A stretch of 34,402 nt of DNA from Candidatus Bathyarchaeota archaeon (GTDB lineage: Archaea; Thermoproteota; Bathyarchaeia; 40CM-2-53-6), in the NCBI GenBank assembly GCA_005883075.1, contig VBAX01000053.1, positions 1-34,402 of the forward strand, read 5' to 3'. Positions 1,557-4,522 of this stretch are shown in pieces. The notes below the pieces were generated by a model that worked only from the letters and a program-made list of their open reading frames with translations, was not told where the DNA came from and ran no database searches. The first letter of the stretch is position 1, and each line of letters starts with the position of its first letter. A program made the position numbers and the translations under genes.

Positions 1557-1667
1557 GCTCCGGTAGTATAGCCCGGTCCACAAGTTTGGCCGAAAGTATG
1601 CCGGACTCTCGATCCGGCGACCCGGGTTCAAAAGGCTCCAAAGAGCCTGACTGTCCCGGCCGGAGCA
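1557..1667 (+). tRNA. tRNA-Glu (anticodon CTC at 1608-1610) with putative introns in D-loop (~1579-1593) and T-loop (~1633-1653)
   Basis: Acceptor GCTCCGG/CCGGAGC (7 bp), anticodon arm CCGGA-CTCTCGA-TCCGG, T-stem CCGGG...CCCGG; removing ~15 and ~21 nt leaves a canonical 75-nt tRNA with loop TTCAAAT. Confidence 0.85.
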
Positions 1668-1680
1668 CTAGACCACAAAC

Positions 1681-2250
1681 TTGGCCAGCATCATACTCAT
1701 AACCGGCACACCCGGAGTCGGAAAGACGGTGTTGGCCCAGAGCCTCTCACGAAAGTCAGGCTTCAAACTGGTCGAACTAGGCAATCTGGTAAGGAAAGAA
1801 AGGCTCTACACCCGCTTTGATAAAGCTAAGAAAACCTACATCGTAGATGAAGGAAAGCTTCGAAGGCGTCTGGAAGTGTTGTCGCGATCACCGGAGAGAG
1901 TCGTTCTACCAACTCACCTGATTGGAAGATTTCTCCCCAAAGCCTCGGTGAAAACGGCCTTAGTACTTCGTCTAGATCCGGTAGTTCTCTATAAGCGACT
2001 GCGGGGGAGGGGGTGGACGAAAAGGAAGGCTTGGGAAAATACAGAAGCAGAGATATTGGACGTGTGCCTCCAAGAGTCTCGTTTGCTCCTCGGAACCCGG
2101 AAGGTGTTTGAGATTGACACTACTCGAAAGTCGGCCAGTGCTGTATACAGGGAAGCGTTGAGCGCCTTGTCAGGTGGGAGAACTGGCAGGTCAGGGTTAG
2201 TAAACTGGCTCGCTCGTTACGATCCGGTCGAATTGGAGAGAACTCTATGA
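1681..2250 (+). CDS. AK6/Fap7-like adenylate kinase (P-loop nucleotide kinase)
   Basis: N-terminal IILITGTPGVGKT Walker A; LGNLVRKERLYTRFDKAKKTYIVDEGKL and PTHLIGRFLP resemble AK6-type kinases. Confidence 0.85.
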   Translation: MASIILITGTPGVGKTVLAQSLSRKSGFKLVELGNLVRKERLYTRFDKAKKTYIVDEGKLRRRLEVLSRSPERVVLPTHLIGRFLPKASVKTALVLRLDPVVLYKRLRGRGWTKRKAWENTEAEILDVCLQESRLLLGTRKVFEIDTTRKSASAVYREALSALSGGRTGRSGLVNWLARYDPVELERTL

Positions 2251-2471
2251 CTGAGAGGGAAAGGTTCTGGATTATCAAGTGCCCGCGTTGCCAGACATAT
2301 CAGATTGCTGATTCTAGGAACAAGAGCAAGACTTGTTCTCAGTGCTCGCGACGGTTTGAGATTCTCGATCTGCCTGTTCTTGCTTCTGCCAAGGGTGCGA
2401 GGGAAGCGAGGGCTATAGTGGCCGACCTGAAGATGCCGAGAACAACTGTATCTGAACCAAAGGTGATATAG
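2247..2471 (+). CDS. Small zinc-ribbon protein
   Basis: 74 aa, CPRC...CSQC pair; start overlaps stop of upstream gene. Confidence 0.75.
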   Translation: MTERERFWIIKCPRCQTYQIADSRNKSKTCSQCSRRFEILDLPVLASAKGAREARAIVADLKMPRTTVSEPKVI

Positions 2472-2537
2472 CGGTCTCCGGGTCCGCACGCTTCAAGGGT
2501 GCCTGGATAACTGTCTTCGACCGCGGGCCGGAAGTTC

Positions 2538-2939
2538 ATGGAAGAACTCTCGAATCTTCTCCAAAAACACGTTAGCGTCTTGACCACTCAGGGAAAGACT
2601 TTCATCGGCACTCTGACGGGCGTTGACACCGAAACCCTTAGCGTCTGCCTCACTAATGCAAAGTCGGACGCTGGTGATATCCACAAGGTCTTTCTGAACG
2701 GCGACACTATTGTCCAAATATCTAGTTTTGAGAAGCCATTTGATCTTCAGAGTCTTGGCGAGAGACTTGAACGGGTCTTTCCAAGAATGGTACGCGTGAT
2801 GGATGATGCGGGAGTGATCGTTGTGATGGACAGAATCCGGGTCAACGAGAGGGGAATCATCGAAGGCACGGGTCCAGCTGCGGAGCGGGTTCAGCGGGTC
2901 TTTGACGAGTTCATGAGGGAAAAAGGCGTCAAGGCCTAA
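2538..2939 (+). CDS. Lsm/Sm-like archaeal protein with C-terminal extension (SmAP3-like)
   Basis: N-terminal Sm fold pattern (LLQKHVSVLTTQGKTFIGTLTGVDTETLSVCL...GDTIVQI) plus C-terminal domain. Confidence 0.7.
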   Translation: MEELSNLLQKHVSVLTTQGKTFIGTLTGVDTETLSVCLTNAKSDAGDIHKVFLNGDTIVQISSFEKPFDLQSLGERLERVFPRMVRVMDDAGVIVVMDRIRVNERGIIEGTGPAAERVQRVFDEFMREKGVKA

Positions 2940-2947
2940 ATCCCGTT

Positions 2948-4522
2948 TTGTCCTTTCAGGTACACGGCAAGGATCTTCTCGGTAGAATCGGAACACTGAC
3001 CACTAAGAGCGGTAGCTTTCAGACACCTCACATGTTTCCCGTCGTGGACCCGAACCTTCCGATCATTGATCCAAAATTCTATCGCGAGGCCGGCATTAGC
3101 GCGATAATGACGAACGCCTATCTCTTGAAGAGAGGTCGTCCAGGTCAGCCGCCGAAGGATATTCATGAGACCCTGGATTTCAAGGGGACAGTGGCCACAG
3201 ATTCTGGAGCTTACCAGATTCTCGAGTATGGACATGTAGGCGTGAGGCCCGCCGAGATCGTTGCTTACCAAGAGAAGATCGACACTGACATTGGAGTGAT
3301 TCTTGATCTTCCAACTGGCTTCCACAGCGATGCAAGACGAGCCGGATGGACTGTTGACGAGACGGTTCGCAGAGCAGATGAAGCTCTCAAGCGAATCAAA
3401 CGGAAGGATATCCTATGGGTAGGTCCGGTCCAGGGAGGAATCCACATCAAAGAAGTCGCTCGGTCCGCCATCGAGATGGGAAAACGACCATTCTCAATCT
3501 ACGCGCTCGGTAGCCCCACCGAGCTAATGGAGGCGCAGCGTTTCGACGTTCTAGTGGACATGATAGTCGCTGCCAAGAAGGGTCTCCCCCATTCCCGACC
3601 CTTGCACCTGTTCGGCGCAGGTCATCCTTCCATGTTCCCATTCATAGTCGCTCTGGGCTGCGACATGTTCGATTCGGCTGCATACGCGCTCTACGCCCGG
3701 AGAGGCAGGTACCTCACCTCCGAAGGAACCCAGGAACTGGCTGAGATCGAAGAGTTCTCCTGCATGTGTAGGATCTGTGACAGAACTACTCCGGGAGAGA
3801 TGCGACGTCTTGATCTACCCGAAAAGGAGCAACTCTTGTCAAAACACAACCTTCTCGCCTGCTTCTCTGAGCTACGCAGGATTCGAGAAGCGATCAGAAG
3901 GGGCCACCTCTGGGATCTCCTCGAACATCGGACCTATGCAAACCCAGCCTTCAAAAAATTCCTTGCAAAGATCGTTCAACATTCTCCCTTTCTGGAACGG
4001 TTCACGCCGACAGTGAAGCCTCGCGGGATCTCCCATTTCGGCAAGGCAAGTGATGATCGTCCCGAGATGGTTCGTTACAATGAGAGGAAGTCGCGCATCC
4101 CGATGGAACGGGGCAAGGCTGTTGTTCTCTTGCCTGGCCGCTGGAGGAGACCCTATCACGAGGACCCACGAAACCTGCCCATGGTCAGTAAACTCGCAAA
4201 CAGGCCAAACGTGTCCATCTGCTTCTACACAATCCCATTCGGGCCGGTGCCGATGGAACTTGATGAGACCTTTCCTCTAGCGCAGACCGAGAGCTTCGAT
4301 AGTCACGAACCGACAATGTACGAGGAGAGAGCGTGTCAGGTGGCCGCCTGGGTCAAACGATTGTCCCCGAAGCAGGTTTTCCTAGTTTCCGAGGGAGAAT
4401 ACGGCGGGGCACTTCGAAAGGAACTCTCAGGGGCAACTCGGCAGTTGAAAGTTATTGGAATCCAGGCCAAAGGGTCGAAGCCGGACCTTATTGTAGATTC
4501 GATCATTCGGCGGTTGCGCTAG
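2948..4522 (+). CDS. tgtA: Archaeal tRNA-guanine(15) transglycosylase (archaeosine pathway), with C-terminal extension
   Basis: FQTPHMFPVVDP, TDSGAYQI, WVGPVQGG, HLFGAGHPSMFPF, CMCRICDRTTPGEM motifs; TTG start. Confidence 0.92.
   Translation: MSFQVHGKDLLGRIGTLTTKSGSFQTPHMFPVVDPNLPIIDPKFYREAGISAIMTNAYLLKRGRPGQPPKDIHETLDFKGTVATDSGAYQILEYGHVGVRPAEIVAYQEKIDTDIGVILDLPTGFHSDARRAGWTVDETVRRADEALKRIKRKDILWVGPVQGGIHIKEVARSAIEMGKRPFSIYALGSPTELMEAQRFDVLVDMIVAAKKGLPHSRPLHLFGAGHPSMFPFIVALGCDMFDSAAYALYARRGRYLTSEGTQELAEIEEFSCMCRICDRTTPGEMRRLDLPEKEQLLSKHNLLACFSELRRIREAIRRGHLWDLLEHRTYANPAFKKFLAKIVQHSPFLERFTPTVKPRGISHFGKASDDRPEMVRYNERKSRIPMERGKAVVLLPGRWRRPYHEDPRNLPMVSKLANRPNVSICFYTIPFGPVPMELDETFPLAQTESFDSHEPTMYEERACQVAAWVKRLSPKQVFLVSEGEYGGALRKELSGATRQLKVIGIQAKGSKPDLIVDSIIRRLR

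Follow-up and report, generated by a model that had tools for sequence, protein, structure and literature searches.

Introduction

The bulge-helix-bulge (BHB) is the substrate of the archaeal tRNA-splicing endonuclease. Introns in archaeal tRNA genes can lie at positions other than 37/38, including 20/21 and 59/60, several may occur in a single tRNA, and lengths from 11 nt upwards have been documented (PMC4090602). In the Thermoproteales (Pyrobaculum and its relatives), tRNAs carry two to three short BHB introns at non-canonical sites (Sugahara 2007, 2008; Fujishima 2010; as summarised in PMC4090602 and PMC8450103). These organisms also have an (alpha-beta)2 endonuclease and similar introns common to different tRNAs, and the movement of introns between tRNAs is known in this group (PMC4090602). 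Together with the epsilon2 enzymes, (alpha-beta)2 endonucleases form the class that efficiently cuts relaxed BHBs, a broad specificity for which a lysine in a loop of the enzyme is required (PMC6379350).

A second likeness is found in Atabeyarchaeia and Freyarchaeia, Asgard archaea of wetland soil in which nearly all tRNA genes are interrupted (92-95% of tRNA genes in soil Asgard genomes) and over half hold multiple introns, often at non-canonical positions (PMC11291895). The host studied here differs from both groups: whereas the Thermoproteales are hyperthermophilic crenarchaea, it belongs to soil Bathyarchaeia, and Atabeyarchaeia and Freyarchaeia, although they too are soil archaea, form a phylum-level lineage separate from Bathyarchaeia. 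No comparable report of tRNA introns for Bathyarchaeia was found in the literature searched.

Results

A tRNA-Glu(CTC) gene with two inserts

The window, the whole stretch of 34,402 nt that was analysed, lies on contig C23 of a 1.9-Mb, 147-contig genome whose assembly is 87.6% complete. Positions 1557-1667 of its forward strand hold a 111-nt tRNA-Glu(CTC) gene with two inserts. When run on the window, ARAGORN and Rfam at its gathering threshold both reported nothing, and this tRNA-Glu was absent from the matches to RF00005 at E values up to 10. After removal of both inserts, ARAGORN identified a tRNA-Glu(ctc) of 75 nt, and in both its output and the cloverleaf all stems of a canonical tRNA-Glu were complete; this bears out the gene, its extent and its spliced length as given in a preliminary description made from the sequence. 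A blind search, allowing one or two BHB-like excisions and requiring a cloverleaf in the remainder, returned, as its top solution for the locus, the removal of 1580-1594 and 1633-1653 with a score of 24.4, compared with a maximum of 15.9 among 200 random stretches of the same contig.

Exon 1 (1557-1579), placed by the cloverleaf and by ARAGORN on the spliced form, comprises the 5' strand of the acceptor (1557-1563), the D-stem (1566-1569) and the D-loop as far as CC (1578-1579). Exon 2 (1595-1632), taken from the blind-search cloverleaf, runs from A21 through the 3' strand of the D-stem, the anticodon arm (CTC at 1608-1610), the variable region and the 5' strand of the T-stem to the TTCAAA of the T-loop. 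Exon 3 (1654-1667), placed by ARAGORN and the cloverleaf, contains T60, the 3' strands of the T-stem (1655-1659) and acceptor (1660-1666) and the discriminator A73; the CCA end is not gene-encoded. With two BHB introns this is a multiple-intron tRNA gene. Its three exons lie together, in the usual order, within 1557-1667, and a split or permuted tRNA was rejected on this ground.

Upstream, CTTAACTGAA at 1527-1536 of the forward strand, about -30 to -21 from the mature 5' end, is a putative promoter element. CTTAAC stands at a constant upstream distance in nearly all members of the genus, and order-level relatives have a TATA-like CATATTTAAC or AAATTATTTAAAG at this position. Downstream (1681-4522) lie genes for a small AAA_18 kinase, an Lsm protein and a TGT-family tRNA-guanine transglycosylase, the last of which is likely to be the archaeosine enzyme, whose target is G15 of the tRNA D-loop. 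The kinase gene flanks tRNA-Glu(CTC) throughout the genus. In the 3' flank (1671-1686), CCACAAACTTGGCC is identical at 12 of 14 positions to CCACAAGTTTGGCC, which spans the D-loop intron, the two having CCACAA(A/G)(C/T)TTGGCC in common; since this stretch shares bases with the beginning of the kinase gene and is not conserved throughout the genus, the likeness is probably due to chance.

The D-loop intron

The first insert is 15 nt long (ACAAGTTTGGCCGAA, 1580-1594, forward strand), as delimited by the blind search, relatives and pairing analysis, and lies directly 5' of A21, at 20b/21 in our own numbering. The central helix of its BHB is formed by CGGT (1574-1577) and GCCG (1589-1592), with bulges of 3 nt on either side (CC|A at the 5' end; AA|A, 1593-1595, at the 3' end), and the cut within these bulges leaves AGCCCGGTCCA as the mature D-loop. 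All four pairs of this helix are found here and in every D-intron-bearing relative scored, tRNA-Asp included. The BHB is of the relaxed type, with four unpaired nucleotides (AGCC) between the D-stem and the central helix. For the window sequence alone, the D intron gave a shuffle P of about 0.001.

The insert recurs in genus and order, being carried by 16 members of the genus and by relatives in several families. Its interior varies in length (11-23 nt) and in sequence, while the CGGT/GCCG pairing is kept in all cases scored, including pairing-preserving changes of GCCG to ACCG (L078) and, in a tRNA-Asp, to GTCG (L163). Summed over 18 introns, central and inner pairs came to 120 against a shuffled mean of 39.4, a sum that none of 20,000 shuffles reached, with the proviso that kinship overstates the independence of these introns.

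The T-loop intron

The second insert occupies 1633-1653 of the forward strand (21 nt, AGGCTCCAAAGAGCCTGACTG) at site 59/60, as placed by relatives, by pairing and by the uninterrupted TTCAAATCCCG of L078. The preliminary description had named exactly these 21 nt, which are also the top excision of the blind search, and the AGGCTC-CAAA-GAGCCT hairpin that it saw within them is present. In the central helix, TTCA (1627-1630) pairs with TGAC (1648-1651) between the bulges AA|A (5') and TG|T (3'). Three of four pairs form here, a T-C mismatch giving the relaxed form, and four of four in most relatives. Both inserts have the BHB setting that the earlier reading had suggested looking for. Inside the intron, GGCTC (1634-1638) and GAGCC (1643-1647) form a hairpin, and central and inner helix together gave a shuffle P of about 0.0006 for the window sequence alone.

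Among relatives the insert ranges from 18 to 26 nt and TTCA/TGAN is kept in most, while the inner hairpins differ on both strands (GGCTC/GAGCC, GCAGC/GCTGC, GCCGGG/TCCGGC). Central and inner pairs summed to 219 over 27 introns, against a shuffled mean of 60.8 and with 0 of 20,000 shuffles reaching this value; kinship again overstates independence. The minimum-free-energy fold of the window prefers another register in the D-loop, CGG(U)CCA/UGGCCG, and leaves the central helix of the T-loop open; the BHB reading is founded on comparative evidence and not on thermodynamics.

Uninterrupted and differently interrupted homologues

By our count, the D-loop is uninterrupted in 77 of the 106 matched Bathyarchaeia genomes, where it reads CCGGTCAAGTAT or CCGGTTAAGTAT and has the length predicted for the spliced product. 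Likewise, the uninterrupted T-loop of L078 (TTCAAAT) is identical to the product of splicing the T intron. The exons hardly change within the order, and the introns vary in length and sequence with BHB geometry kept. The sites occupied also differ: tRNA-Glu of family f5 (L077, L146) has three introns, in the D-loop, at 37/38 and in the T-loop, and family f4 and genome G026 lack the D intron and have those at 37/38 and in the T-loop. Outside the order, three genomes (G064, G072 and G116; L142, L143 and L144) carry a different D-loop insert in tRNA-Glu, in which, by inspection, GGTY pairs with GACC one base downstream and the same D-loop is restored. Because this insert is distinct and displaced by one base, the D-loop of tRNA-Glu has probably been interrupted more than once. 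An additional apparent insert at 37/38 was seen in the tRNA-Glu of these three genomes.

Interrupted tRNA-Glu matches came mostly from 'Candidatus Bathyarchaeota' MAGs, many of them, by their titles, from soil-depth samples. One match labelled 'bacterium' (L129; JAJPJY010000147.1, Centralia_MAG_577) is probably a mislabelled Bathyarchaeia, since it carries the archaeal two-intron tRNA-Glu. The gene is single-copy in nearly all relatives, including one estimated to be 100% complete. Genome G016 has two different tRNA-Glu(CTC) genes, on C38 and C30, 100% and 86% identical to that of the window, possibly through contamination from a second species of the genus. A pattern for tRNA-Glu(TTC) had no match in 38 genomes and was most likely too strict.

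Introns in other tRNA genes

In the tRNA-Asp(GTC) of the family, the D-loop is interrupted by an intron of 23 nt that has a strong inner hairpin; its site and splice helix are the same as in tRNA-Glu. In the present genome tRNA-Asp(GTC) was seen on two contigs (L051/L170, from G000:C134:79 on; L162, from G000:C110:22571 on), both times with the 23-nt intron, and L051 has an apparent further insert in the variable region. The tRNA-Asp genes of the genus were found with a shortened pattern, the insert near the variable region being longer than the gap limit of the first one. The predicted spliced D-arm of tRNA-Asp, CCGGTCCAGTATGC, occurs uninterrupted in two distant members of the class, preceded upstream by T for C at one D-loop position. 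The common D-loop site of tRNA-Glu and tRNA-Asp may reflect intron movement between tRNAs, or parallel insertion into identical exon sequence.

A census of tRNA genes was drawn from the RF00005 candidates plus tRNA-Glu and is incomplete, as RF00005 misses heavily interrupted genes. It yielded 25 genes solved at a score of at least 20, each of them assigned one intron or more and 16 of them two or more; these figures are approximate because of such misses, because anticodons were not individually checked, and because for one single-intron case, a tRNA-Leu (L025), an intronless solution scores nearly as well. Three introns were assigned to tRNA-Asn(GTT) and to a tRNA-Met(CAT). Among L023-L052, L136 and L137, nearly every resolvable tRNA gene is interrupted, many of them twice. 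Finally, tRNA-Gly(GCC) and tRNA-Gly(TCC) (L034, L038) have a near-identical 26-nt T-arm intron (AAACCGCCTTAAC.GCGGTTCGGGA.), a likeness that points to copying of the intron or to gene conversion.

The splicing endonuclease

Turning to the enzyme, the genome encodes two EndA (tRNA-endonuclease) paralogues, and the same is true of nearly all relatives searched. For the alpha subunit (C18, 189 aa) the best solved match is the catalytic subunit of the Aeropyrum pernix (alpha-beta)2 endonuclease (PDB 3p1z; E 3.8e-42). The two proteins are about 42% identical and have the catalytic residues and loop lysine in common: catalytic Tyr, His and Lys are present in C18, and its Crenarchaea-specific loop carries K42, aligned with Lys44 of A. 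pernix. In the beta subunit (C134, 176 aa) the loop is missing, as is part of the active site. Homology thus points to the two assembling into a tetramer, an (alpha-beta)2 splicing endonuclease of the broad-specificity type, and the genome has the genes for an enzyme able to cut relaxed BHBs.

Alternative readings of the locus

Three other readings of the gene were weighed. If only the T-loop insert were spliced, that of the D-loop would be retained as an enlarged D-loop in the mature tRNA, a reading favoured by the shortness of the insert and by a BHB that is not the minimum-free-energy fold here. We regard this as very improbable. The insert varies between 11 and 23 nt and in sequence while its flanks and central helix stay constant. 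In many relatives the D-loop has exactly the length predicted after splicing, and the arrangement recurs in tRNA-Asp together with a strong inner hairpin. Retention of the insert should also disturb the contact between D-loop and T-loop. Still harder to credit is a decayed or disrupted pseudogene whose work is done by another tRNA-Glu(CTC). A fragmented assembly could miss such a copy, but BLAST of this 87.6% complete genome found no second tRNA-Glu(CTC), the single copy is the rule among relatives, the stems are all perfect once spliced, and the exons are almost identical throughout the genus.

The remaining alternative accepts both introns and concerns the exact D-loop cut. The preliminary description had the length of 15 nt right, and its placement needs to be shifted one base downstream on both sides: it had removed CACAAGTTTGGCCGA, which leaves GGTCAA in place of GGTCCA. 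In favour of that cut, the uninterrupted tRNA-Glu of relatives is mostly GGTCAAGTAT, which it reproduces in this species. It has no BHB helix, however, and in the sister species with GCCGAGAG (here GCCGAAAG) it would yield GGTCGA, whereas the BHB cut gives the same product in both; moreover, GGTCCAGTAT is a natural uninterrupted D-arm in the tRNA-Asp of Bathyarchaeia. Given the missing BHB and the differing products in sister species, we rejected this cut, which is very unlikely to be the true one. Nor is a 15-nt intron 'very short', as had been remarked, in view of the 11-nt minimum and of isodecoder medians mostly between 12 and 25 nt (PMC4090602).

Discussion

We conclude that the gene is almost certainly a functional tRNA-Glu(CTC) interrupted by two short protein-spliced BHB introns, of 15 nt in the D-loop and 21 nt at 59/60. 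The blind search, the uninterrupted homologues, the conserved BHB helices and the matching endonuclease all argue for two non-canonical introns, as first proposed, at sites that have precedents in other archaea (20/21 and 59/60; PMC4090602). In the precursor, the D intron would form a BHB from CGGT/GCCG with the bulges CC|A and AA|A, and the T intron one from TTCA/TGAC with the bulges AA|A and TG|T. The (alpha-beta)2 endonuclease would then cut within the bulges, at 1579/1580, 1594/1595, 1632/1633 and 1653/1654, and a ligase would join the exons into a standard 75-nt tRNA-Glu, with predicted junctions CCGGTCC + AGTATG in the D-loop and GGTTCAAA + TCCCGG in the T-loop. Transcription, cleavage and ligation in the cell are what we infer from these sequence features.

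The locus adds a clean new case to a known intron type and brings no new mechanism. The modest novelty lies in the host, a lineage of soil Bathyarchaeia whose tRNA genes carry introns throughout, and in the occupation of the same D-loop site in tRNA-Asp. We tentatively suggest, at somewhat less than an even chance, that tRNA introns have spread widely in this soil order, on a scale comparable with the Thermoproteales, and that they have moved between tRNA species, tRNA-Glu and tRNA-Asp having an intron site and splice helix in common.

Heavy multi-site interruption of tRNA genes thus extends beyond hyperthermophilic crenarchaea and a few Asgard lineages to soil Bathyarchaeia. As ARAGORN and Rfam at its gathering threshold both missed this gene, these genomes may have more tRNAs than have been counted, and annotations based on such counts may fall short as well. 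In this class one gene occurs both with and without introns, and this makes the gain and loss of introns, and their movement between tRNAs, directly traceable. If the proposed spread in this soil order is real, intron gain and loss could be dated in a lineage that is not hyperthermophilic and in which genomes with and without introns are closely related.
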